In this document: positions 12,887 to 26,100 of the stretch, piece after piece
How positions within the stretch are numbered: the stretch's first letter is position 1
How the letters are laid out: the number at the start of each line of letters is the position of its first letter
Translations under genes and position numbers: made by a program
The notes under the pieces: model-generated
What the model was told of the DNA's origin: nothing
Database searches by the model: none
The model's input: only the letters and a program-made list of their open reading frames with translations
NCBI GenBank assembly: GCA_022843225.1
Contig: JALHOC010000020.1
Span: 1-38,010, forward strand
DNA from: Hyphomonadaceae bacterium
GTDB lineage: Bacteria > Pseudomonadota > Alphaproteobacteria > Caulobacterales > Aquidulcibacteraceae
Direction: 5' to 3'
DNA length: 38,010 nt

Positions 12887-14566
12887 TCAGGCTGGTAGTG
12901 TGACGCGCACCTTGGCCCCCCTCTCGGAGTCCAAGATGACGATCTCGCCGCCATGCGCGCGGGCGATGCCGCGGGCGGCGGCAAGCCCAAGCCCCGCGCC
13001 GCTCATGCCTTCGTTCAGACGCACGAAGGGTTCGAACACCGCGTCTCGCTGATCAGCGGGGATGCCCGGCCCATCATCGTCGATGTCGACCAAGGCTGTG
13101 CGGTCACGGAGCATCAACGTGATGCGCGCGGATGCGCCGAACTTCAGAGCATTATCGACGAGATTGGCGAACAAACGCTTCAAACCAAGCGACTGCCCAG
13201 TGATGATGACGCGCTCCGCGTCCGCATAACTCACGCTGAACCCCGCTTCGAGGCGGTCATCAGCGATGCTTTGCAACAAAGCTGATAGATCGAGCCGCAC
13301 GCGCGCTTCTTCGGCGGGATCGTCGCGCGCGAAAGCGATGAACGAAGCGACAAGCGATTCGACTTCGCCAATCTCCTTGGCCATCCGCTCGCGTTGCTCA
13401 GGCGGCGCGTTTTCAGCGACAAGCCGGAGGCGCATCAGCGGCGTGCGCATGTCGTGCGCCACCGCAGCGAGTGTCTTGGTGCGATCAGCGATCAAAGTGC
13501 GCAAACGCGCTTGCATCGTGTTGATCGCACGCGCGGCGCCGCGCAATTCGCGCGGACCCTCCTCGCGCACGGGTTCGCTTTGCGGGTCGACACCCACGGC
13601 TTGCACCGCATCGGAGAAACTGCGGATGGGACGCGTCAACCGGCGCGCGAACCAAACAGCCAGCAACGAAAGCGTTAGCAAAGTGCCGCCAATAATGCCG
13701 GCAGCGCGCGCGATCCAACTGATCTCGGCCCAATTGCGCCCTTGGCGCATGACCAACCAACGCCCGTCCGGCAGTTGCGCGCTCACCTCATAGTCCGAAA
13801 TCAGCACCGCGCCACGAGGCGGGGGAGCGAAGATCGGCGGCATGGGCGGCGTCGGGACAACGGCCGCAGACGGCGGTTGCGATGTCGTACTCGGCGGCGC
13901 GGGAGGAGGAGGCCTGGGAATACGAACCTCAAGCGGACCGCCGCGTTCGGTGTAAACTTCGACCTGGGCTGGGCTTGGCGTCCGAATGATGACGCCTCCG
14001 CCGTCAGCGTTGGCCTCGCGCGCGGCGCGCATGGCCTCTGCGGCTTCTTGCTGGGCTTCGCGTATCGCCTCGATCCGTGCGCGATGTTCCTCCCAATGCG
14101 ATTCGCGCTCAACGGCGCGTTCAGCACGGTGCGCATCGCGCTCCGCACGCGCGACCTCGCGCTGAATTTCTTCGAGATCGCGCACGCGAAAAACAAAGGT
14201 TTCGTTACGGACAATACTCGACGCCCCGACCCGCACCTGCTCGGGCGCTAAGGCTAGGCTGTTGGCGAGCTCGAATTGCGTTGGTTGCAGATGCGAGGAA
14301 AGAACGCGCGAATCGGGCGCATTCCGCTGCACGAACCAACTCAAACTGTCGCTTGGCAAAGGGCGCCCCTCAGCCAGCATGAAGTCGTAACCAGCGCGGA
14401 ATTCGTCCGCGACCGTATCGGCCGGCGTCACGTCTGGCGGGCGCGGCGGCAACCAGATGACAATCGCGAGCACGGCCACGAATGCCGAAGCCAGCGCCAA
14501 CGCCACCAGGAAGCCCAGATACGCCGCGATCGGCAAGCCGCCGCCAGGACGCAAGCTTGTTTGCAT
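12887..14566 (-). CDS. Sensor histidine kinase with large periplasmic coiled-coil/proline domain
   Basis: 559 residues: membrane helix 1 (about 13-40), a periplasmic domain of about 240 residues, membrane helix 2 (about 285-307), HAMP, HisKA and HATPase domains. The phosphorylated residue is His371 in AAVAHDMRTPL; the ATPase has NLVDNALKFG, DDDGPGIP and GAGLGLAAARGI. The periplasmic part is odd: a charged Ala/Glu/Arg helix (about 130-190, many AER repeats) and a Pro-rich stretch with PPMPP (about 218-262), echoed in the divergently encoded EF-hand protein. The start ATG overlaps the stop of the regulator gene (TGATG), so the pair is coupled. EnvZ/PhoQ-like in layout; the signal is unknown. 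Confidence 0.92.
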   Translation of the reverse strand: MQTSLRPGGGLPIAAYLGFLVALALASAFVAVLAIVIWLPPRPPDVTPADTVADEFRAGYDFMLAEGRPLPSDSLSWFVQRNAPDSRVLSSHLQPTQFELANSLALAPEQVRVGASSIVRNETFVFRVRDLEEIQREVARAERDAHRAERAVERESHWEEHRARIEAIREAQQEAAEAMRAAREANADGGGVIIRTPSPAQVEVYTERGGPLEVRIPRPPPPAPPSTTSQPPSAAVVPTPPMPPIFAPPPRGAVLISDYEVSAQLPDGRWLVMRQGRNWAEISWIARAAGIIGGTLLTLSLLAVWFARRLTRPIRSFSDAVQAVGVDPQSEPVREEGPRELRGAARAINTMQARLRTLIADRTKTLAAVAHDMRTPLMRLRLVAENAPPEQRERMAKEIGEVESLVASFIAFARDDPAEEARVRLDLSALLQSIADDRLEAGFSVSYADAERVIITGQSLGLKRLFANLVDNALKFGASARITLMLRDRTALVDIDDDGPGIPADQRDAVFEPFVRLNEGMSGAGLGLAAARGIARAHGGEIVILDSERGAKVRVTLPA

Positions 14567-15282
14567 CAAGATCTCGGCTTCACGGCAAAGAGATAGCCCT
14601 CGCCCCGCACCGTTCGAATGACCTCGACTCCGGGACGCTCAAGCTTGCGACGCAGCCGGCTCACTTGCACATCTACGGCGCGATCGAACACGTTGCCATC
14701 GTTGTCGAACGCGAAATCCAGCAATTGCTCACGCGAGAGCACACGCCCCGGCCGCTCGACAAAGGCGCGCAGCAGACGAAACTCGCCGGACGACAGGGAA
14801 ATCACCACGCCGTCGGGATCGTGCAGCTCCCGTCGCGCGACATCGAGGCTAAAGCCCGCGAACCGCACGGACTCCGCATACGGCGCCTCGGTCTCGCGCG
14901 AACGGCGCATAACAGCCCGCGCGCGCGCCACAAGCTCACGCGGATTGCAGGGTTTGGCGAGGTAATCGTCGGCGCCGATCTCGAGACCCACGATACGATC
15001 GGCGTCGTCCCCCAAGGCCGAGAGCATGATGATGGGCGGGCGCCCTTTGCCGGAGAGACGCTTGCAGGCTGAAAGCCCATCCTCACCGGGCATCATCAGG
15101 TCGAGCACTATAACATCCGCGCCCTTCGCGGTCAGCGCACGCTCCATGGCCGCGACACTTCCGGCGGTCGCAGCCTCGAAGCCTGCGCGCTCAAAAACCT
15201 CGGCCAAGCCAGAGCGAATGTCGCTATCGTCGTCCACAATCAGGACGCGGGGGCGCGGCGCGGGTTCGGACATAACCGCCAT
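14566..15282 (-). CDS. OmpR/PhoP-family response regulator
   Basis: 238 residues: a receiver domain (about 10-125) with the acidic DDD cluster, phosphoacceptor Asp61 in VLDLMMPGEDG and Lys110 in YLAKPCNP. It is followed by a winged-helix DNA-binding domain (about 145-235) with VDVQVSRLRRKLE and the RTVRGEGYLF hairpin. Partner of the kinase just downstream. The ATG at 15282 lies one base beyond the stop of the hydrolase gene; an ATG at 15273 is an alternative. Longer upstream extensions would run into the hydrolase gene. Likely target: the tandem direct repeat at 16444-16465 upstream of its own operon and of the EF-hand gene (inference). Confidence 0.93.
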   Translation of the reverse strand: MAVMSEPAPRPRVLIVDDDSDIRSGLAEVFERAGFEAATAGSVAAMERALTAKGADVIVLDLMMPGEDGLSACKRLSGKGRPPIIMLSALGDDADRIVGLEIGADDYLAKPCNPRELVARARAVMRRSRETEAPYAESVRFAGFSLDVARRELHDPDGVVISLSSGEFRLLRAFVERPGRVLSREQLLDFAFDNDGNVFDRAVDVQVSRLRRKLERPGVEVIRTVRGEGYLFAVKPRS

Positions 15283-15283
15283 G

Positions 15284-16390
15284 TTATTGCGGCCTTGGCC
15301 CCGCCAACAGAGGAAACAACGCCGAGAGCATCGACTCCGCAGTCGGCGGCTCGCGATTGGTGAGCACAATCAGCGTCCAGTCGCCGTTGCCAAAGAGCAC
15401 GGCGTTAACACCTGGCGCACCGCCAAGGAAACCCGAGCGCGCCGTGGCGCGGCCGGGCTCAGGCGTGCCGCGTACGACCTGCGCGGTGAGTTCGGAGTTG
15501 AGCAAACGGTGTTCGCGCAGCGCATTATCGAACGCAAGCAGATCGCGAAGGGTCGAATACGCGTTGCCCGCCGCACTGCCCGCATAACCGTGAAACTCCG
15601 AAACATCCATGAGCGGTCCGTCCGGCCCGCGCGGGGTACCTGTGAAGGACGCGGTGTTGGCCGGCAATTGGTCGCGACGGAAAAAGCCCGAACTCGCCAT
15701 ACCAGCTGGCGCAAAGACGTGGTCAGCGACGTAGGCCTCGTAACTCTGTCCGGTCACGCGGGCGATGATTTCGCCGAGCACGATGTAACACCCGTTGCAA
15801 TAGGTTTCACGCGCGCCCGGTGCGAACATTGGCGCCCGCGATGAGACGAAACGAAAATAGGCGGCGTTAGATGTAAGGTCCTCCATAGACACCGCGCCGA
15901 AACCAGGCCCGACAAAATCTGCGACGCCGCCGCGGTGCTTCAGCAATTGGTCGATGGTCGCGGCGCGCGTGGCTTCCTGCGGATAGTCAGGGATGATCTC
16001 CCCGACAGTCGTGTCGAGCGTCAGCCGCCCCGCTTGGATCAGTTGCGCAATCGCGACATGCGTGAATGCCTTGCCGATCGAGGCGAGAGGGAAATGCGTA
16101 TCTTGGTTGAGCGCGCGATTCGATACGAGATCGCTGACACCGCGGGCGCTCGCATAAATCTCACGCCCGTCTCTCGCGACCAAAACCGCTCCGTTGAACA
16201 TGCCGTCGCGGTTAAGGCCGGAGAGCCAAGTGTCAAGCTCGGCTCTGATCCTGGCATCGCTCATCCCCTGACTGATGGCGGGCGGCGTCAGAGCAGGGCC
16301 TCCGGGTCGAATTTGTTGAGCCTGCACGGGCAGTAGGAACGTAGCTAGCGCCAGAACTGATCCAGCCAAAGCGCGCAAAAACATAGCCAT
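15284..16390 (-). CDS. Exported serine hydrolase of the beta-lactamase (class C/S12) superfamily
   Basis: 368 residues with a signal peptide ending PVQAQ (about residue 25). The SxxK motif is Ser104-Ile-Gly-Lys107 and the YxN motif is Tyr197-Cys-Asn199. The third motif (KTG or HxG) is not obvious: a GFLGG segment lies where it is expected. Such proteins include AmpC-like enzymes, D,D-peptidases and esterases; with the third motif unusual, true beta-lactamase activity is not assured. The ATG at 16390 has AGGGG upstream and opens on the signal peptide. It is the first gene of the operon with the regulator and kinase, so the kinase may well sense envelope damage (inference). Confidence 0.85.
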   Translation of the reverse strand: MAMFLRALAGSVLALATFLLPVQAQQIRPGGPALTPPAISQGMSDARIRAELDTWLSGLNRDGMFNGAVLVARDGREIYASARGVSDLVSNRALNQDTHFPLASIGKAFTHVAIAQLIQAGRLTLDTTVGEIIPDYPQEATRAATIDQLLKHRGGVADFVGPGFGAVSMEDLTSNAAYFRFVSSRAPMFAPGARETYCNGCYIVLGEIIARVTGQSYEAYVADHVFAPAGMASSGFFRRDQLPANTASFTGTPRGPDGPLMDVSEFHGYAGSAAGNAYSTLRDLLAFDNALREHRLLNSELTAQVVRGTPEPGRATARSGFLGGAPGVNAVLFGNGDWTLIVLTNREPPTAESMLSALFPLLAGPRPQ

Positions 16391-16443
16391 GCAGAGAGTC
16401 CCCTGTGATCCCTGTGATCGAAGACTGAGCAATACGAGTCCTC

Positions 16444-16465: not shown

Positions 16466-16543
16466 TGACGTACGCCCGAAACGTCGAGAGCCCACAAAGG
16501 TGCCTCGTTAATGAGCCCGAACGGCTCGAATGAGGGATTGGTC

Positions 16544-17392
16544 ATGATGAAACTGACAACCGCGCTGGGCGTTGCGCTCGCCTCGCTCACAGTCGCCGCG
16601 TACGCCGATTCGAGCGGCCCTAACGTCGTGATCCGCCAGGTCGGGCCGGGCCTGCACCATGGTGGCGGCGACGCCGATAATGACGGCTGGATCACACGCG
16701 CCGAGGCCAGCGCGGGCGCCGCGCGCATGTTTGACGAGATGGACGCCAACGATGATGGCCGCTTGACCTCCGAAGACCACGCCGGGCGCCACGAGCACAT
16801 GCGCGCGGGCCACGGTCCGGACGGCGTTCACGTCATGGGCATCAACGAAGACAATTGCGAACGAACCTCAGAGGGCGAGGGCGACGATCGGCGCGTGACC
16901 GTAATTTGTCGCGAAACAGGCGACGGGGAACGCAGAACCGAGCGGACCGTGACCATTGTCAGAAATGGCGAACAGCTCGACGAGGCCGAAATCCAGCGCA
17001 TCGAACGGGAAGCAGAGCGAGTCGCGCGCGAGGCTGAGCGCGCTGCGCGTCATGCCGAACGGCGCGCGCGCTCGGCCGCCAGAGACGCCGACGACGCCGC
17101 GCGTGAAACCGAGCGACGCGTGGTTGTCGTGACCGGCGGTCCTGACGGCGCGTGGGTTGATGGCGTGCCGATGCCGCCAATGCCTCCGCTTGCGCCGATG
17201 ATCATGATGATGCATGGCGGCGGCGAGGCCGATCTGGATGGAGACGGCGCACTCTCGCGCGATGAGTTCGTCGCGCAGCATTTGCGGTTCTTCGACGCAC
17301 AGGACGCGAACCGCGACGGCCGCATCGAAGTTCCACGCCCGCCGCAACCGCCGGCGCCGCCAGCGCCGCCGGAGTCTCCGCGCCGCCGGTAA
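16544..17392 (+). CDS. Periplasmic four-EF-hand protein with charged coiled coil
   Basis: 282 residues with a signal peptide (cleavage near AYA-DS, about residue 21). Four calcium-binding loops are visible: DADNDGWITRAE, DANDDGRLTSED, DLDGDGALSRDE and DANRDGRIE, the last incomplete at its end. Between the pairs lies a long charged helix of AER/EAER repeats and a Met/Pro-rich PPMPP stretch. The ATG at 16544 is chosen for its GAGG ribosome binding site and the signal peptide; 16511 is possible. It diverges from the two-component operon whose kinase has a similar helix and PPMPP stretch, so a calcium-dependent interaction with that kinase is an attractive guess. A 30-residue peptide gene follows 122 bases downstream. 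Confidence 0.85.
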   Translation: MMKLTTALGVALASLTVAAYADSSGPNVVIRQVGPGLHHGGGDADNDGWITRAEASAGAARMFDEMDANDDGRLTSEDHAGRHEHMRAGHGPDGVHVMGINEDNCERTSEGEGDDRRVTVICRETGDGERRTERTVTIVRNGEQLDEAEIQRIEREAERVAREAERAARHAERRARSAARDADDAARETERRVVVVTGGPDGAWVDGVPMPPMPPLAPMIMMMHGGGEADLDGDGALSRDEFVAQHLRFFDAQDANRDGRIEVPRPPQPPAPPAPPESPRRR

Positions 17393-17514
17393 TGCGACGA
17401 GGCGTCGCCCGCGCGCGACCAACCTCGTGGCGGCGCCTGCATCCAAACACAATGTCAGCTGCATCATACGTGTATCGACAAGCACCGCAGCAGCACCACG
17501 AAAGGAGCAAGATC

Positions 17515-17607
17515 ATGTCCAAACTACTCAACATCGCCGCTGCACTGGTGTTCGTGGCGCCGCTTGCGATCGCCCTTGTGTTTCAAGCCGCTCTGATCGT
17601 CGCCTGA
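17515..17607 (+). CDS. 30-residue single-span membrane peptide, copy 1
   Basis: A complete small gene: strong ribosome binding site (AAAGGAG, 7 bases before ATG), 30 codons, TGA, then an intrinsic terminator. The peptide begins M-S-K, continues as one hydrophobic helix with a central V-A-P (14-16), and ends Q24-A-A-x-I-x-A. It shares Met1, Lys3, Ala9, Ala10, Val12, Val14, Ala15, Pro16, Ala18, Ala20, Gln24, Ala25, Ala26, Ile28 and Ala30 with copies 2 and 3, although the codons differ. The predicted position is in the inner membrane, with Lys3 inside by the positive-inside rule. No family was recognised. Small regulators such as MgtR are similar in size only. Confidence 0.8.
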   Translation: MSKLLNIAAALVFVAPLAIALVFQAALIVA

Positions 17608-17638
17608 TCCCCCACACCCGCCTGCGACGGTCATTCGG

Positions 17639-17670
17639 AAGGCGCGAACCTTAAACGGTTCGCGCCTTTT
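17639..17670 (+). terminator. Intrinsic terminator after peptide copy 1
   Basis: Perfect 12-bp stem AAGGCGCGAACC (17639-17650) with GGTTCGCGCCTT (17657-17668), 6-nt loop, T-rich tail. It ends the peptide transcript about 30 bases after the stop, showing that the small gene ends its own transcription unit. Confidence 0.85.
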
Positions 17671-17799
17671 CCTTGTGAGGCGATCATGAACGTCAAGACA
17701 TGACCGGGCCGACGAAAAATTTTCGCTCCCAGCATCCAAGCGCGTCGCTGCCGGCATCTCATAATCAAGAGATCAACACTGATGCTTAAGGAGCCCGTC

Positions 17800-17892
17800 A
17801 TGAGAAAGTTTTTCGCTATCGTCGCCGCGATTGTCGTGGTCGCCCCTGCCGCGTACGCCGCCATTTTCCAAGCTGCCCAAATCCTAGCCTAA
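17800..17892 (+). CDS. 30-residue single-span membrane peptide, copy 2
   Basis: Second member of the family: ribosome binding site TAAGGAG, ATG at 17800, 30 codons, TAA, then a terminator. It begins M-R-K with two Phe, has the V-A-P at 14-16 and ends F-Q-A-A-Q-I-L-A. It is identical to copies 1 and 3 at 17 of 30 positions each. The V-A-P codons are GTC GCC CCT here, GTG GCG CCG in copy 1 and GTT GCG CCA in copy 3, so the protein has been kept while the DNA drifted. It stands alone between two terminators, about 190 bases after copy 1, so it needs its own promoter. The upstream GCATCTCA..ATCAAGA stretch recurs before copy 3. Confidence 0.8.
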   Translation: MRKFFAIVAAIVVVAPAAYAAIFQAAQILA

Positions 17893-17914
17893 CCCTCCCA
17901 TCGTTGCGCAGCGA

Positions 17915-17949
17915 TGGCGCGGGACCCTTAGGGTCTCGCGCCATTTTTT
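17915..17949 (+). terminator. Intrinsic terminator after peptide copy 2
   Basis: 13-bp stem TGGCGCGGGACCC (17915-17927) with GGGTCTCGCGCCA (17931-17943), one G-T pair, 3-nt loop, followed by six T. A classical rho-independent terminator, 22 bases after the stop. It also separates the peptide from the AraC gene. Confidence 0.9.
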
Positions 17950-17993
17950 GCGCGCTTGGCGCAACAGCGCCGGAACGCTTACAAGCTCCGCCT

Positions 17994-19040
17994 ATGAATA
18001 TGTTGGTGCTTGAGATGCTGGCGCGCGGCATAGCCATCGGCGCGCTGGCGGCGATGGCGGCGGGTTTCGCCCGAGAGACCGCCCGCGCCCACGTCCGCTT
18101 CGTGGGCATCCTGTTTTGTGTGGGCGTCATCGCCTATGCGCTCAACACGTCGCCGCTGATCGCCCCGGCGATCGGGCCGCTCGCCTACCCTGTGCATTTC
18201 CTGTCGCTGGGCGGCGCTGGATTGTTTTGGCTGTTTATTGTGACCCTGTTCGAGGACAGGCCGCTGTCTTGGCCGAACTTCGGTCCTTGGATTTTACTGA
18301 CCATCGTGGGGTTCGTCGGCGTTGTCGCGCAGCGCCCGCAGGCCTCCCATGTATGGATCGTTCACAATCTGATCGAAGCGGGGTTCGCCATCCATGCGCT
18401 GTACCTGGTGGCGCGCAGCTGGCGCGGCGATTTGGTGGAAAGCCGTCGTCGCCTGCGTGGGCCATTCCTCGCCCTAGTGACGCTTTACGTTCTGTCGCTC
18501 TCGGCATTCGAGATCGCCGAAAGCCTGGGCTATTTCAAAGACTGGTTCCGCCCCTTGGGCGCGTGGACGCTCGCGCTCTATTGCGTCGCCGGCGCCTTCG
18601 TTTTCCTTCAGACGCGCGCCGAATTGTTTGGCGCGGCAGCGCCCGCTACGCCTGCCGCCCCTGCTGTCGATAGCGGCACGCGCGCCCTGCTTGATAAGCT
18701 CAACGCGGCGATGGACTCAGGCGCCTGGCGGCGGGAGGGCTTGACCGTCGGCGATCTCGCCGCCGAGGTCGGCGTGCCGGAGCATCGGTTGCGGCCGCTG
18801 ATCAACGACCATCTCGGCTTTCGCAACTTTGCCGCATTCGTGAACGCGCGTCGCATCGAGGCGGCGAAAGCCATGCTGAGCGACCCCGAGCAAGCGCGAA
18901 CGACCGTCGCGGCCATCGCTTTCGAATTGGGCTTCGGCTCGCTCGGCCCCTTCAACCGCGCCTTCAAGGAAGCGACGGGGGTGACGCCGACGGAGTTTCG
19001 GCGCGCTCCAACCTCGCCGAATCCCAAAAACCCTGGCTGA
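17994..19040 (+). CDS. AraC-family regulator with N-terminal membrane domain
   Basis: 348 residues. The first 210 or so form about six or seven hydrophobic helices, like other membrane-bound AraC proteins. The C-terminal 100 residues hold the two helix-turn-helix motifs, with LTVGDLAAEVGVPEHRLRPL and VAAIAFELGFGSLGPFNRAFKEATGVTP, the AraC signature. It probably senses a lipid or membrane signal and acts on nearby genes from the membrane. The ATG at 17994 is used because it lies just after the previous terminator; the ribosome binding site is weak. The gene is followed 96 bases later by the sterol desaturase gene on the same strand, its most likely target. The inducer is unknown. Confidence 0.88.
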   Translation: MNMLVLEMLARGIAIGALAAMAAGFARETARAHVRFVGILFCVGVIAYALNTSPLIAPAIGPLAYPVHFLSLGGAGLFWLFIVTLFEDRPLSWPNFGPWILLTIVGFVGVVAQRPQASHVWIVHNLIEAGFAIHALYLVARSWRGDLVESRRRLRGPFLALVTLYVLSLSAFEIAESLGYFKDWFRPLGAWTLALYCVAGAFVFLQTRAELFGAAAPATPAAPAVDSGTRALLDKLNAAMDSGAWRREGLTVGDLAAEVGVPEHRLRPLINDHLGFRNFAAFVNARRIEAAKAMLSDPEQARTTVAAIAFELGFGSLGPFNRAFKEATGVTPTEFRRAPTSPNPKNPG

Positions 19041-19136
19041 ATCCGAAACCGACCAAGGTTTTTAGGCCTCGGCGAGCCTTCCTCAGCCATATCGCCCATC
19101 GCTCTCCTCGCGAACCCAACGCACTGGAGAGCCGCA

Positions 19137-20360
19137 ATGGATTTCACGCTACTATCCGACATCGCCGGCCAATGGCTGGACAACGCCGAAACCGACGTCA
19201 CCCGCTACGCCCTCTTCGCCATCGGCGTCTGGCTCACCTTATGGGTGGCGCTGGCTGGCCTGCTCCGCGGCCGCAAGATCCGCGAAACAAACCCGCCCAC
19301 GAAACAAATGGCGGTCGAGTTTCTGGTCTCGCTGCGGTCGGTGGCGATTTTCTCCACCATCGGGCTTCTCACCTTCCTGCTTGAGCGGTTCGGCCTCTTG
19401 CCAGGGCCGCAGATCGCCGCCGGCTGGGGGCCGGTGTGGTTCTGGTTCAGCCTTGGTCTGATGATCGTGGCCCATGACGCCTTCTTCTATTGGTCGCACC
19501 GGCTGATGCACGACCCGCGCCTATTCCGCCGCTTCCACCGCCGCCACCACAAGAGCCATAATCCGTCGCCCTTCACCGCCTACAGTTTCGATCTCGGCGA
19601 AGCCGCGATCATGGGTGTGTTCGTGCCGCTGTGGATGATCTCTGTGCCGACGCAATGGCCGGTCGTGGGCCTCTTCATGCTGCACCAGATCGTGCGCAAC
19701 ACTTTAGGACATTCGGGCTATGAATTGATGCCGGCGCGCGGCGATGGCCGGCCGATGTTCGACTTTCTCACGACCACCACGCACCACGACCTCCACCACG
19801 CCCAAGCGGGTTGGAATTACGGCCTCTATTTCACGTGGTGGGATCGGCTGATGGGCACCGAGCATCCTGAGTACCACGCTCGTTTTGCCGCCGCCGTGCG
19901 CAAACCCCTATTGACGCGCCAACGCGCCAAGCTCGCGCCGGCGGCCAGTGTCGCGATCACAACTTTGGCCCTCCTGCTGCCGCCTCAAGCCGCGCGCGCC
20001 GAGACCCCCGCCGCGATCGCCGGCGATTGGGCGACGCCGGGCCTCGGCGCCGTGGTGCGCCTTGGCCCTTGCGCGAACAGCTCCAATACGTTGTGCGGGC
20101 GTCTCCTCTGGGCGTGGGACGAAGGCAGCATGCGGCCCAATGCCACCGGCTCGATGATGCTGCGCAACGCCGCCTGGCGCGACGGGGCGTTTCGTGACGG
20201 CGAACTCCTCAATCCCGAAGATGGCCGCACGTATCGCGGCGAGATTAGGATTGAGGGTCGCGATGCTTTGCGTCTGCGCGGTTGCGCCGGCCCGTTCTGC
20301 CAGTCCCAGGTCTGGCGGCGCTTGGAAAGCATTCCACGCCCGAATTTACCGCCGAATTGA
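19137..20360 (+). CDS. Sterol desaturase/fatty acid hydroxylase fused to DUF2147
   Basis: 407 residues. The N-terminal 255 are a membrane di-iron oxygenase of the fatty acid hydroxylase superfamily: four or so helices and the three histidine boxes HRLMH (121-125), HRRHHKSH (134-141) and HHDLHH (216-221). Residues about 266-288 form a new hydrophobic stretch ending Q-A-A-R-A-E, like a signal peptide with an A-x-A cleavage site. After it comes a DUF2147 domain (about 293-398): IAGDWATPG, LCGRLLWAW, LNPEDGRTYRGEI and LRGCAGPFC...W. DUF2147 is normally a separate exported protein. The ribosome binding site GGAGAG precedes the ATG. It probably hydroxylates or desaturates a membrane lipid; the DUF2147 half should face the periplasm. 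Confidence 0.85.
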   Translation: MDFTLLSDIAGQWLDNAETDVTRYALFAIGVWLTLWVALAGLLRGRKIRETNPPTKQMAVEFLVSLRSVAIFSTIGLLTFLLERFGLLPGPQIAAGWGPVWFWFSLGLMIVAHDAFFYWSHRLMHDPRLFRRFHRRHHKSHNPSPFTAYSFDLGEAAIMGVFVPLWMISVPTQWPVVGLFMLHQIVRNTLGHSGYELMPARGDGRPMFDFLTTTTHHDLHHAQAGWNYGLYFTWWDRLMGTEHPEYHARFAAAVRKPLLTRQRAKLAPAASVAITTLALLLPPQAARAETPAAIAGDWATPGLGAVVRLGPCANSSNTLCGRLLWAWDEGSMRPNATGSMMLRNAAWRDGAFRDGELLNPEDGRTYRGEIRIEGRDALRLRGCAGPFCQSQVWRRLESIPRPNLPPN

Positions 20361-20440
20361 GACGCCCAATGCATCCGATCGCGCACGCCGCTGCATCTCA
20401 AGATCAAGAACCTCGAAACGCACCGAAACAGGAGTTGAAA

Positions 20441-20533
20441 ATGACCAAAGCCGCCAACCTCTTCGCCGCCATCGTCCTGGTTGCGCCAGTCGCCGCCGCG
20501 ATCCTCATGCAAGCCGCCCAGATCGTCGCCTGA
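20441..20533 (+). CDS. 30-residue single-span membrane peptide, copy 3
   Basis: Third family member: ribosome binding site AGGAG, ATG at 20441, 30 codons, TGA and a terminator. It begins M-T-K, has the V-A-P at 14-16 and ends M-Q-A-A-Q-I-V-A. It lies 80 bases after the desaturase-DUF2147 gene and may be read from that transcript or its own promoter. After the stop, the bases GATCCCC-ACCCGCC and the terminator sequence resemble those after copy 1; before the start, GCATCTCA-AGATCAAGA resembles copy 2. So the whole cassette, not just the coding part, was duplicated. Function unknown. Confidence 0.8.
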   Translation: MTKAANLFAAIVLVAPVAAAILMQAAQIVA

Positions 20534-20563
20534 TCCCCACCCGCCCGCGATGGTCGCAACCAG

Positions 20564-20599
20564 AAGACGCGGACCTTCCGTAAGGTTCGCGTCTTTCTT
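20564..20599 (+). terminator. Intrinsic terminator after peptide copy 3
   Basis: 14-bp stem AAGACGCGGACCTT (20564-20577) with AAGGTTCGCGTCTT (20582-20595), one G-T pair, 4-nt loop, then a T-rich tail. It resembles the terminator after copy 1 (CGCGAACC/GGTTCGCG core). Confidence 0.88.
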
Positions 20600-20643: not shown

Positions 20644-21063
20644 ATGGGCTCGGTCAATCCAAACGGCGACCAGATCGCGGGTATGATGGCAAGCGCAAGC
20701 GACCCCTCGCCGATCAACATGATCAATCTGATCCGCTTCCGCGCGAAAGCCGACTATCCCGCCGATCATGCCTGCGCGCGCGAGAGTTTGACCGGGGAGC
20801 AAGCCTATCAACGCTACAGCGCCGCCACGCTCCAGTTCCTGGCCAAGCTTGGCGCGCGCGTTGTGTGGGCGGGCGCACCCAATCTGGTCGTAATCGGCCC
20901 CAGCGACGAACGCTGGGACATGGCCTTTATCATCGAATATCCGAGTGTCGGCGCAATGCTCTCGATGATCGGCGACCCTGAGTATCAGAAGATAGCGGTG
21001 CACCGCACCGCCGCCGTCGAGGACAGCCGCTTGATCCGCTGCGCGCCGCGCGCGACGCCTTAA
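20644..21063 (+). CDS. DUF1330-family protein
   Basis: 139 residues of the DUF1330 family, which has the dimeric alpha-beta barrel (ferredoxin-like) fold: an [12 protein letters not shown] strand, a YQRYSAA helix, a [10 protein letters not shown] strand, a [10 protein letters not shown] strand, then a helix with [14 protein letters not shown] and a VEDSRLIRC strand. Function is not established for the family. There is no signal peptide. The ATG at 20644 has a good ribosome binding site (GGAGGGA). It begins its own unit after the terminator and its end overlaps the convergent pbpC gene by four bases. Confidence 0.88.
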
Positions 21064-23126
21064 CCGCCGCGCACCCGCACGCGTACGCTCTCGCTTTGCC
21101 CGTCTGCGTCCACAACCGTGACATCATAGAAACCTGGAGCAGCGGGACGCCAGATCGCGCGACCGCTAGTCGGTTCAACATCGACCCGCGCGCCTTCGGC
21201 ATACCAAGTTAGCGGCGCGCGCCCGCCGCGCGCGGACAACGAGAGCCCGCGCGCCTCGGCGCCATAGTCCAGCACCAAAACCTCTGTGTTCGCGGGTGGG
21301 AACAGGATCGCCAGTCCTTCGCGCGCGTCTTGCTCGAACCGCACCAGGGAGGGCGCCGGCCGGTTGCGCTCCTCTTCCGGCGCTGGCGCGAGTTCGCTCG
21401 GCGCGCCGATCAGATCGAACGCCTCGAACAGAATTGGCAACGCAGCCGCGCGACCAGTCGCGCCCGGGCGCGGCGCGCCGTCGGGCCGGCCTACCCAAAC
21501 GCCGATTGCATAACCGTTCGAGACGCCAAATGCCCATGCATCGCGAAAGCCGTACGAGGTGCCGGTCTTAAAAGCGATGCGCGGGGCGTTGCGCGCCACA
21601 TGCGCAGGCACGCGGCCCGCAGGATGCGGCGAGGTTGCAAGAATCTCAAGCACGCGTTCGGCCGTTTCGCCGCGTACAAAGCGGCGCGGCAAGGCAAGCA
21701 ACGGCGCGGTGTCGTCGGCCAGCGGCCGCGCGCTGCCGTCATCGCCCAACGTCGCGTACAATTGCACCAAATCCTCGAGCGTCATTCCGACGCCGCCGAG
21801 CGCCAGCGCAAGTCCAGGCTCGGCGATGGCGCGGCGCGGCATGCGCACGCGCGCGCCCGCGCGCGTCAGCGCAGCCTGGAAGCGGCCCGCGCCAATACGC
21901 TCCAATGTCGCCACCGCCGGCAGATTGAGCGAATGACGCAACGCGTCCTCTAAAGAAACATCGCCGTGGAAACGGCGGTCGAAATTCTCCGGCAGATAAC
22001 CGCCAAAACTGCGCGGCGCGTCACGCACCAGAGTTTCCGGCGCGGCAATGCCTTCGTCGAAGGCGATAGCGTAGAGAAACGGCTTCAGCGCCGAACCTGG
22101 CGAGCGCACAGCGCGCGTCATGTCGATATAGCCGCCAGCGCGCTCGCGCCCGGCGCCGCCGATGCGCGCGCGTACTCCGCGCCCCTCGATCTCGACCGCC
22201 AGCATCGCGATCTGCGCGTCGCGTTCGAGCCCCTGCGCATGACGGCGCGCCAGCGCTTCGAGATCGCGTTGCAAGCGCGCATCGAGCGCGGATTGGACCA
22301 CGCCGTCGCCCGGGTGCGCGTTCACCAAAGCTTGCGCCCCATGCGGCGCCGAATACGGGAACGGCGCGCGCGTCGGGATGGCTATCTGGCGGCCTTCAGC
22401 CGCGCGGCGGTCAGTGATCAAACCGGCTGAGACGAACATGGAGAGCATGCGGTCACGCGCTGTGCGCGCGGCTTGCGGGTGACGGTCGGGCCGACGCGCC
22501 TCCGGCGCTTGCGGCAGCGCGATCAGAAGCGCCATCTCGGCATCGTCGAGCCATTGTGGGTCGCGCTGAAAGTAAGCGCGGCTAGCGGCGCGCACACCTT
22601 CGAGGTTGCCGCCATACGGCGCCAGGGTGAGATAAGCCGCGAGAATTTCGCGCTTCGACAACCGGCGCTCGATTTGCAGCGCGCGGATAATCTCGATGAG
22701 CTTAGATGGAATTGTGCGCGGGCGCGGTTCCAACAATCGCGCCAACTGCATGGTAATGGTTGAGCCGCCTTGGGTGATGCGGCCCTGACGCGCGTACGAA
22801 ACACTGGCGCGCGCCAGCGCAATCGGATCGACGCCCGGGTGAAACCAAAAGCGGGAATCCTCAATGGCGATCAAACGACGTTGAAATTCAGGATCGATTT
22901 CATCGAGTCGCGCTTCGAGGCGCCAAGCGCCCTGTGGCGTGGTGAACGCCATCACCCATTCGCCGTTGCGATCGACAACGACAGGCGAAACCTCGCGCAC
23001 CCGCGCCAGCGGCGGCGGAAAAGTCTGATCGAGCGCGAACAGCGTGAGCATGAGCGCGAGCACCATTGTCGCGACACGTTTACCCTTTGGGGTTAAGGGC
23101 AACGGCGCGCGGGGGCCCCGTTTCAT
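21060..23126 (-). CDS. pbpC: Penicillin-binding protein 1C
   Basis: 688 residues: an N-terminal membrane anchor, a glycosyltransferase GT51 domain with catalytic Glu89 in EDSRFW and [14 protein letters not shown], then a transpeptidase domain with Ser345-A-L-Lys348, SLN in RHSLNLPA and Lys520-Thr-Gly, and a C-terminal BiPBP_C beta domain (last 90 residues). PBP1C polymerises peptidoglycan strands in the periplasm. It lies 49 bases after the alpha-2-macroglobulin gene, as in many proteobacteria, where the pair repairs the wall after attack. The ATG at 23126 has GGAGAGGGGGG upstream and is preferred to a TTG at 23195 that overlaps the neighbour. All catalytic motifs are intact. Confidence 0.93.
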
Positions 23127-23129
23127 TCC

Positions 23130-23152
23130 CCCCTCTCCCTTACCGAGAGGGG
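23130..23152. repeat. Hairpin between alpha-2-macroglobulin and pbpC genes
   Basis: CCCCTCTC (23130-23137) pairs with GAGAGGGG (23145-23152), loop of 7. It lies in the 49-bp gap of an otherwise tight operon, right at the pbpC ribosome binding site, so it could hide the site or attenuate transcription. It may also be another dispersed palindrome. Confidence 0.5.
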
Positions 23153-23175
23153 AGCAGCGGGCTCCTTGCGTCTCG

Positions 23176-26100
23176 TCATTGTCCTCGTGGCGCAATTGTA
23201 ATGGCGCTGGTGGTGGTGCGCGCCATCACGCCAGGGCGATACATGTCCTCTGCTTGCGCGGCGGGCAGAGTGAAACGACCCGGCGTCACCGCACGCACCA
23301 TGTAAGCGTAGCGGAACGGCCCGCGCAGATCAGCGGACGCCACGAACCGGTCGTCACGGCTTTCTTGGACCTGATTGTACGTGATCTCGCCGACCCAAGC
23401 GAATGGCCCACGACGCGACCCGCCATCCCAGTTCGTGCCCGACCCATCCATCGGCGTCAGCAGCGACTCGATCTCAAGTCCGGCCGGCAAGAGATCGACA
23501 ACGACCGTGGGATGATTGCGCGCGCCCTCGGGCTGGCCGGAGACCACCACGATCAAACGATCGCCTTGGCGCACGGCGTCGAGGTCAGCCATTGTACCGT
23601 CGAGACGGAACACGCGCTTATCGATCGTGTAGCCCGCCTGCATGGAAGGCGGCGCCTCGATTGGTACGCCTGACGCCGCAATGGTGCGCCACGCCGGCCC
23701 GCGCGCTGCGTTGCGGAACACAAGCCCAGCAGCCAAGCGCTGCGCATTCGCCATGACGCGCCGCTCGGCCATGGCTTGGCCGTTCAAAGTGACATTGATC
23801 GGGCCTGCGCGTTCCAACAACGCATTCGCCGCCAGCAGAAGCTGCACTTGCTCCTGCGTCATAAGCAGCCCCGCCTCCGGCGCGTCGCGCTCAAGCCGGA
23901 CGCGCAGTCGGTTGACCAGGTCGGTCTCGCCCGCTTCGGCCGCTAACGCCAACACGCCCGCGAGATCGCGCAGTGGAGTCTGGTACCAATCGCCGACATT
24001 GCGATAGCCCAGAGCCCGTTCGGCTTGCTGGAACGCGTTCCTCGACCGCGCGCGGTCGCCCATATGGGCGAGCGCGGCTGCGATATGCGCGCGCGCCAAT
24101 GGCGAAGGCTCATCGCGCAAGCGGTTGTCGTGATAATAGCGCAGCTGGCCAATATCGGCCTCGCCATTGCGCGCCAGTACATAAAGCGCATAGGCCGCCG
24201 CGCGCGAGCGCATCAGCTCGTTGGTGTCGTTCGACCCTGGCCACCGATAGACCTCGAACTGGTAGCCGACCGAGCCGAAATCATTGAGCCGCGCGACGCG
24301 GCGCAGCGCCGCATAGGCTTGTTGCAAGGGCTGACGGGGCACCGCGAAGCCCTGAGCACGCGCGCGCGACAGGAAGTCGGTCACGTAGGCGCCCAGCCAA
24401 GGCGAGGCGTAGCCGTCGCCAGCGCTCCACAGTCCGAACGCTCCGTCGGGACCTTGGCGATCGAGCAATTGCGTTGCCGCCTCTTGCACGCGCCGTGTGA
24501 TACGGGGATCGCGCGCGCGATCTGCCTCGGACGCAAGCGTATTGTAATAAAGCAGCGGCATCGCCACCGATGTCAGCTGTTCAGAGCAACCGTAGGGATA
24601 GCGATACAATTCGTCGAGAAGCGGCGCGGGATCGATGCCCGCGAGGTTCGAGAATGAAATCAAAGCTTGCGAGCCCGAGGGCTGGAACCCCGCCAGAGTA
24701 TCCGCGGGCGCTCGCCACGAGGCGCCTGCGGCCTGCGGCTCGGTGCTTGTGATTGTGATCGGCATCCAGGGCGCGCGCGATTGGATGTCGTACGTGCGCT
24801 CGACAGACGTGAAGCCGCTCGGGCCTTCAAGCCGCAACGTGATGCGCCCAACGCCCAAAGGCCCGCCGCTAATTGGGATCAGCGCTGTTTGCCGCTGGCC
24901 GCGCGTGAGCTGGAAGCGACGCGGCTGCGTTTGGATGCGTGCGGTGTCGGAACCCGCGATCGTAACGGTATAGGCGCCATTCGGACCTTCGACATTATCG
25001 ATGTTGAGCGCACCTTGCGCGGCGTCGCCCGGCGCCAGGAAGCGCGGCAGGATCAATTCCGCCACCACCGGATCGCGCACGACAATCTGTTCGGCGTCTT
25101 GACCCAGTGCGGTTTGGCTCCACGCCACCGCCATGAGCCGCAGCGTGCCGTTGAAGTCCGGCACATCCATGGGGATCATTGCGCGACCGCCGCGCACTTC
25201 GACGATATCGGAGACAAGCGCGACCGTGCGCGTCGGCACGACCGTTAGCCCTTCGCCCCCCAAACTATCGCCACCTTGGCGCGGCGTTGCCGGCGCGCCA
25301 AGGTTTGGATTGAGCAAGCGGCCATAATCGTCGCGCACATCGACGCCGAGCGCGCGTCGGCCGAAGAAATAATCGACCGGGTTGGGACTCGTATATTTGG
25401 TGATGTTGAGGATGCCCTCATCCACCATGGCGATGGCGACGCGCACGCGCTCTCCGCTTTGGACGTTGCGCACCTGCACCGGCACTTCGATGCGCGTGCG
25501 TGGGCGCACGTTCTCGAGGCCGGCGCCGGCGATCACTTCCAATGTCCGCCCGCCCATATCGACCGGCACGTACGCCACGCCGATGGCGCGGCGCGGCACC
25601 GGCAAATTCACCGGATCGCGCGGCGTGATGACAGTGACCAGCACATAAGCGCCAGAGCCCCACTCCGCAGAGACAGGAAGGTCGATTGTCGTGCCCTCAG
25701 CGCTGACGCGCACGGTGCGGGTTTCGATCACGCGATCAGTCGCAACCACGATTTGCGCTTCGCCAGCGTACGGCGGGCGAATTTGCACGCGCGCGCGCGC
25801 GCCAGGCCGCACAGAATCGCCGGGCGCGACAACACTGACCATATCCGGCGTCGCGTCGTCGTCAGCCGGGCCGCCCCAACCGACGCCGAAGCGCTGCGAG
25901 GCTTCCGCACCCGTGCGAGTCTCCCGCACGATCAAACGGTAGGAGCCCGAGCGCAGGCCATCCTTGGCGATGCGCAGCGGTTCGCCGGCGGGAATGTCGA
26001 CGGTTGCGCCATCGACGGGAATGTCGCGCCCGGTACGCCGCCAGCGCCAATTCCCGTTGTCCAGATACCAATCGTAGTTCCAGTCCTCGCGCACCAGCTG

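Follow-up and report, generated by a model that had tools for sequence, protein, structure and literature searches.

A lineage-restricted, multi-copy family of 30-residue peptides with features of minimal signal peptides in relatives of Caulobacter

The window analysed here, a 38,010-nucleotide stretch of contig JALHOC010000020.1 from a Hyphomonadaceae bacterium (assembly GCA_022843225.1), contains three very short genes on its forward strand (Table 1), each running from an ATG start through exactly 30 codons to a stop. A preliminary description of this DNA had presented them as 30-residue genes sharing 15 positions, with 17 agreeing in each pair and a Shine-Dalgarno (SD) site before each, and this held in full. 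Alignment left 15 of 30 columns invariant, copies 2 and 3 were each 57% identical to copy 1 (17/30), the third pair agreed at 17 positions by eye, and the SD sites read AAAGGAG, AAGGAG and CAGGAG. Codons for the shared VAP motif, said to differ among the copies, formed three distinct words (GTGGCGCCG, GTCGCCCCT, GTTGCGCCA), although the Ala codon GCG occurred twice. Copy 2 has a further in-frame ATG upstream at 17782, which would give 36 codons; since its SD falls within that longer frame and relatives favour the shorter one, the 30-codon start was preferred. A separate promoter element and a separate terminator-like hairpin accompany each copy.

A profile of these three sequences alone matched eight more copies in the host genome (E 2.7e-8 to 9.6e-4), which argues that the genes are not chance frames. 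The additional copies form tandem pairs on contigs C3, C11, C58 and C100 and bring the clear copies to 11 at E≤1e-3; a larger profile, built from 67 distinct 30-mers, gave 12 matches, the twelfth probably a weak match on C8. At E≤0.1 the three-sequence profile had matches in 32 of 61 genomes (the host, 28 of the same genus and three others). With the 67-sequence profile at E≤1e-3, 35 of 60 genomes of the taxonomic family matched: 29 of the 30 sampled within the genus, with 1-24 copies each and a 57%-complete genome as the sole miss, all four g20 genomes, and one genome each of genera g8 and g23, the g23 match being weak. Sampling across the order gave matches at E≤1e-5 in 34 of 348 genomes (29 from the genus, 4 from g20 and 1 from g8), and in a class-wide sample of 385 the host itself was the only match (0/384 others). 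The profile search of related genomes that the preliminary description had proposed therefore confirmed the family and found it far larger than three copies.

The same description had deduced selection on the protein, and had named broken frames at homologous loci or a ratio of nonsynonymous to synonymous substitution (dN/dS) near 1 as outcomes that would speak against it. No internal stop or broken frame occurred among the matches listed in the own-genome, genus, family, order and class searches. Pooled dN/dS was 0.103 (pS 0.236, pN 0.029) over 16 syntenic pairs matched by hand from neighbourhood and order, 13 between G023 and G018 and 3 between G027 and G029. These values point to strong purifying selection on the peptides.

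No described family had been recognised in the three genes, and library searches agreed. The three window peptides had no Pfam match at E≤1; among the 67 members, NCBIfam gave scattered, weak matches (best LP_plasma, 1.9e-4, in 4/67) and PHROGs a weak best match of 0.017. Literature searches, as far as made, returned no publication containing the tail letters and none on such a peptide family. A phage or plasmid origin was considered and set aside, one family peptide (the L053 copy) having no match at E≤1 in plasmid and phage collections; likewise a known RNA family, an Rfam scan giving nothing at gathering threshold in 7 loci. The family is apparently undescribed, occurs in many copies per genome and is restricted to one narrow group related to Caulobacter. 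The three genes are members of this lineage-restricted family, and the identity that we offer for its products, pre-peptides of about 30 residues, is one on which our confidence is evenly balanced. Genes so short are frequently overlooked by annotation; here a family under strong selection, with as many as 24 copies in a genome and two common promoter elements, is without a convincing entry in any of the three libraries of families searched.

The first of these promoter elements, class I, is GCATCC-N16-GCATC, found upstream at 28 distinct peptide promoters, those of all three window copies included. The scan covered 86 profile matches from 41 sequences, a few of them weak (L049) and several mutual orthologues, and the spacer was 16 in all 28 although 12-19 was permitted. 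The extended form GCATCC-N16-GCATCT had 61 matches in 8 genomes and none in the reversed control. Eleven of 30 strict matches inspected precede family peptides. Others stand before a conserved protein of about 111 residues that looks exported (L085, L089, L110, L114) or before a DUF6249 gene, which is followed by a gene for an extracytoplasmic function (ECF) sigma factor and then by a third, small gene (L094, L096); the remainder precede various or no clear genes. This third gene had no Pfam match and is possibly the anti-sigma factor of the operon, whose gene order was read in two orthologues. Of 8 orthologues of the ECF gene (76-100% identity), 7 have the element upstream, and the eighth, that of the host genome, is at a contig end; in the G071 orthologue the second half of the element reads GCATCC. 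Because the peptides and the ECF operon share the same -35/-10-like element with the same 16-nucleotide spacer, it is likely that the class I copies, the window three among them, depend for transcription on the ECF sigma factor whose gene follows the DUF6249 gene. Across the 60 genomes, peptides and ECF factor occurred together in 33, peptides alone in 2, the ECF factor alone in 3 and neither in 22. A scan of the window region for sigma-70 promoters found 0, with 0.8 expected. The family also provides a testable promoter for this DUF6249-linked sigma factor.

Some further observations concern the same element. At L094:131-1456 and at L096 (orthologue G000:C93:250-795) the operon itself has GCATCC-N16-GCATCT upstream and is possibly autoregulated, and a second related ECF gene adjoins it. 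The element also precedes DUF2807 (head GIN) proteins in L093 and L108, and the class I regulon may take in envelope or adhesin-like proteins.

Dispersed copies carry the second element, class II: the palindrome GTGAC-N4-GTCAC or near variants, with TAnnTT at a fixed offset, each of its letters present in 36-37 of 38 in a search that required the palindrome letters. If TAnnTT is taken as the -10 box, the palindrome is centred at -41.5, the classical site for CRP as a class II activator, and these copies are likely activated by a CRP-family protein bound there. The combined pattern had 54 matches in 6 genomes against none in the reversed control, and of 30 inspected, 21 preceded a family peptide, 5 stood before a 95-aa or 153/154-aa protein and 4 had nothing clear behind them. 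By strict patterns, 64 transcription units comprised 31 with class II only, 22 with class I only, 6 with both and 5 with neither; those units seen with both were first members of arrays, and class II often precedes two-peptide operons. Control by an ECF and a CRP-family factor is what we infer, and the inference is well founded. As a side observation, the 95-aa protein behind class II promoters (L120, L131, L133) is conserved; the 153/154-aa protein is that of L129 and L132.

The architecture of the peptides was examined in 131 distinct sequences gathered with the family profile, a choice that in itself brings in some conservation. A script located the QAA Gln in 127 of them; its distance from the C-terminus was 7 residues in 123 peptides, 6 in three others and 8 in the last. 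In the four QAS members that the script missed, the Gln was at the same place by eye. Counting back from a putative cut after residue 20, Pro occupied -5 in 121/127 peptides and Ala -3 in 120/127, and the -1 residue was Ala in 110, Ser in 8, Thr in 4, Val in 4 and Leu in 1 (Ala, Ser or Thr in 122/127). The -2 position accepted eleven different residues and, as position 19 of the 109 distinct 30-mers, varied more than any other column (2.93 bits; next came position 23 with 2.92). In these 30-mers Lys3 was present in 107, and 104 had no charged residue after position 3. The conserved plan thus reads Lys3, a hydrophobic core, Pro -5, Ala -3, a variable -2, Ala -1 and then xLxQAAxIVA-COOH. Longer members (31-46 residues) are extended before the core, except L069, which has one extra residue at its end.

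Judged by motif, this plan matches a Sec signal peptide in its positive n-region, hydrophobic core and helix breaker at -6 to -4, and a signal peptidase I site in its small residues at -3 and -1 with a free -2. Signal peptidase I binds its substrate in extended form; residues -3 and -1 enter pockets, and -2 stays outside them. Over positions 16-24 conservation entropy alternated with period 2 (permutation p 0.006-0.009), and a helical period, measured as power at 100 degrees, was not seen (p 0.78 over 16-24, 0.53 over 4-30). The alternation was kept after redundancy cuts at 80, 65 and 55% (53, 20 and 8 sequences; p 0.006, 0.018 and 0.004) and was present in both halves of the family (p 0.032 and 0.008). 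Since a membrane helix is not expected to yield such a pattern, a Sec signal peptide fits the conservation better.

Starting from a family whose spread, selection, two common promoter elements and terminator-like hairpins are evident from sequence, we propose to read the peptide as a Sec signal peptide of minimal size, with Lys3 and a short hydrophobic core followed by Pro -5, Ala -3 and Ala -1, and that signal peptidase I would cut it after residue 20, freeing the decapeptide xLxQAAxIVA into the periplasm; the two steps together seem to us about as probable as their contrary. Speculatively, the freed tail with its fixed hydrophobic C-terminus might bind an envelope partner, perhaps a C-terminus-reading (PDZ) protease, in a stress response; the evidence leaves room for a role in signalling or as a protease ligand, but such a role is a guess. 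Stress-controlled exported micropeptides, with cleavage presumed, are the best reading we have, at roughly even confidence. The fuller scheme, a Gram-negative exported-decapeptide system in which up to two dozen genes per genome, single and paired, would send xLxQAAxIVA to the envelope or outside as signal or protease ligand, with a dedicated sigma factor of the ECF type and an activator of the CRP type in control, we consider unlikely in its entirety. If the tail is released, the family would be among the smallest Sec pre-peptides and a rare Gram-negative candidate for peptide-based envelope signalling.

Several observations weigh against this proposal. On the side of regulation, four distant ECF homologues (40-44%) had the exact element in one case, a mismatched one in another and none in two; the two genomes with peptides only (G002, G021) had no ECF match at E≤1e-40, three had the ECF factor without peptides (G028, G030, G033), and shared ancestry accounts for part of the association. 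On the side of export, the hydrophobic remainder, at 10 residues, is very short for a substrate of signal peptidase I, Ala is missing from -1 or -3 in some copies, neither period was found over positions 4-15, and the periodicity windows were picked after the profile had been seen. AlphaFold2 drew one continuous helix from 2 to 29 for three sequences, a result uninformative for so short a hydrophobic peptide. In 22 pairs of copies lying 4-53 nucleotides apart, position 19 was aromatic in 20/22 first genes and Met in 13/22 second genes, a non-random choice at -2 that could make this position functional; Cys11, in the same pairs, occurred in 17/22 second genes versus 6/22 first genes. No linked receptor, importer or protease partner was found at the loci compared. 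The tails were alike within and between genomes by eye, and not strain-specific.

The main rival holds that these are uncleaved single-span inner-membrane micropeptides, made under envelope stress, which bind larger membrane proteins or alter the membrane. Small proteins such as KdpF, MgtS and CydX act in this way on larger membrane proteins or the membrane. The hydrophobic stretch from residue 4 to 30, nearly always uncharged, the invariant Gln within it, the AlphaFold2 helix and the presumed stress-type regulation would all suit such a peptide. It leaves unexplained, however, the -5/-3/-1 pattern with its highly variable -2; the period of conservation over 16-24 is not helical, and no constant neighbour protein was found across the compared loci. 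We therefore rank export and cleavage above it and regard it as a tentative second choice. The preliminary description had called the products membrane peptides: a membrane span is possible, but the conservation resembles more that of a signal peptide followed by a conserved C-terminal decapeptide.

The RNA features of the units bear on two other explanations. A terminator-like hairpin closes nearly every unit (none was found in 2/64, and a few are weak). An SD-complementary loop of CUCC type (AUGCUCC, UCUCC) tops it in 16/31 class II-only units, 0/28 units with class I and 1/5 unassigned units, compared with 0/60 background terminators of the same loci, suggesting a possible 3'-untranslated-region small RNA or self-control. 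In 19/29 class II leaders the SD is preceded by a perfectly paired hairpin of 6 or more pairs, against a mean of 0.7 and at most 4 in shuffles; the stems are of several distinct sequences. Together with the tandem hydrophobic paralogues, these features would fit toxic peptides of type I, such as Ibs, Ldr and Hok, whose translation is held off by RNA structure. Against this, complementarity of the SD to its own loop was no better than to swapped loops (p 0.17, 17 units), the promoters are of the activated type, the window copies have no CUCC loop, and a fixed C-terminal decapeptide is not known from such toxins; the Rfam scan of 7 loci, with no search beyond Rfam made, gave no match to an antisense RNA. 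Type I toxins are thus improbable here. Still less credit is due to leader peptides or attenuators of downstream genes, or to frames that are open by chance across a functional element of DNA or RNA. The hairpin soon after the stop in nearly every unit could be read in this way, and codon choice, skewed relative to neighbouring genes at 11/30 codon positions, makes some nucleotide-level constraint possible; dN/dS of 0.10 and downstream genes that are unrelated between loci, partly on the opposite strand, disfavour it, and we hold it to be very improbable. CUCC-loop units are L047, L048, L052, L056-L060, L062, L063, L066-L068, L072, L073, L075 and L076.

Known systems were set beside the family by description. 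Streptococcal SHP and enterococcal iAD1/iCF10 are hydrophobic pheromone precursors of 20-35 residues with a positive start, whose mature part is a short C-terminal tail; they belong to Firmicutes, usually occur in one or few copies, and SHP adjoins its receptor gene. The window family shares the size, hydrophobicity, positive start and conserved short C-terminal segment (Gln 7 from the end in 123/127), but is Gram-negative, has up to 24 copies per genome with near-identical tails in each, and shows no linked receptor. It resembles Ibs, Ldr and Hok in its tandem, very short hydrophobic paralogues and in possible RNA-level control of class II units, and differs in its activating-type promoters and signal-peptidase-like geometry. 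With KdpF, MgtS and CydX it shares about 30 residues, one hydrophobic span and, presumably, stress regulation; those proteins are typically single-copy with one partner, whereas this family is multi-copy at unrelated loci.

Also close is the CaBP-SigV circuit of Caulobacter vibrioides, the point of likeness being that, in the same order, the gene of a periplasmic EF-hand protein adjoins an ECF sigma gene (PMC13171946). In the passages concerned, the promoter elements are GGAAA/CGTTCA and GGAAGCTTCG/GCTTCA, not GCATCC-N16-GCATC, and micropeptides are not described (PMC13171946). A link to that circuit through a common promoter was accordingly rejected, as far as those passages go.

Genes around the array (Table 1) recur at other loci. 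Within 5 kb, a histidine kinase and an EF-hand gene lie on one side in 8 array loci, PBP1C and alpha-2-macroglobulin genes on the other in 10, and both sides are present in 6; in G036, of another genus, 35-residue members adjoin the same PBP1C and alpha-2-macroglobulin genes. This neighbourhood is one of the cell envelope, which agrees with the ECF factor and names no partner. The suggestion in the preliminary description that the peptides regulate neighbouring membrane proteins, such as the kinase or the desaturase, did not hold as a general role: AraC and desaturase genes adjoin 3 of the compared loci, many copies lie at unrelated loci, and neighbours differ between loci.

Table 1. Coordinates of the peptide genes, their signals and neighbouring genes in the window
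Feature	Position	Strand	Details	Basis
Peptide gene copy 1	17515..17607	+	30 aa, MSKLLNIAAALVFVAPLAIALVFQAALIVA	ORF list, alignment, profile search
Peptide gene copy 2	17800..17892	+	30 aa, MRKFFAIVAAIVVVAPAAYAAIFQAAQILA	ORF list, alignment, profile search
Peptide gene copy 3	20441..20533	+	30 aa, MTKAANLFAAIVLVAPVAAAILMQAAQIVA	ORF list, alignment, profile search
Class I element of copy 1	17439..17465	+	GCATCC-N16-GCATC; begins 76 nt before ATG	
Class I element of copy 2	17732..17759	+	GCATCC-N16-GCATCT	
Class I element of copy 3	20371..20398	+	GCATCC-N16-GCATCT	
Terminator-like hairpin after copy 1	17637..17670	+		own script; absent from general terminator scan
Terminator-like hairpin after copy 2	17913..17945	+		own script; absent from general terminator scan
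Terminator-like hairpin after copy 3	20563..20596	+		own script and general scan
EF-hand protein gene	16511..17392	+	recurrent neighbour upstream of array, 8 loci including window	
Two-component system	12887..15369	-	response regulator 14566-15369, histidine kinase 12887-14569; recurrent neighbour of array	
PBP1C-type gene	21060..23195	-	transglycosylase, transpeptidase, BiPBP_C; recurrent neighbour downstream of array	
AraC-type regulator	17994-19040		between copies 2 and 3	
Fatty acid hydroxylase/DUF2147 protein	19137-20360		between copies 2 and 3	

Copy 3 is followed by a DUF1330 gene. The fatty acid hydroxylase domain and the DUF2147 domain between copies 2 and 3 are fused in a single frame. 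Between the two-component system and the EF-hand gene, at 15284-16432, lies a gene for a serine beta-lactamase/PBP-like protein (PF00144), whose gene cluster (11) is present in 4 other loci. Finally, in the 30-residue copies the codon of the invariant Gln (codon 24) is CAA in 65 of 70 distinct genes, compared with 45% of Gln codons nearby, and codons 9 (GCC) and 29 (GTC) are likewise skewed.

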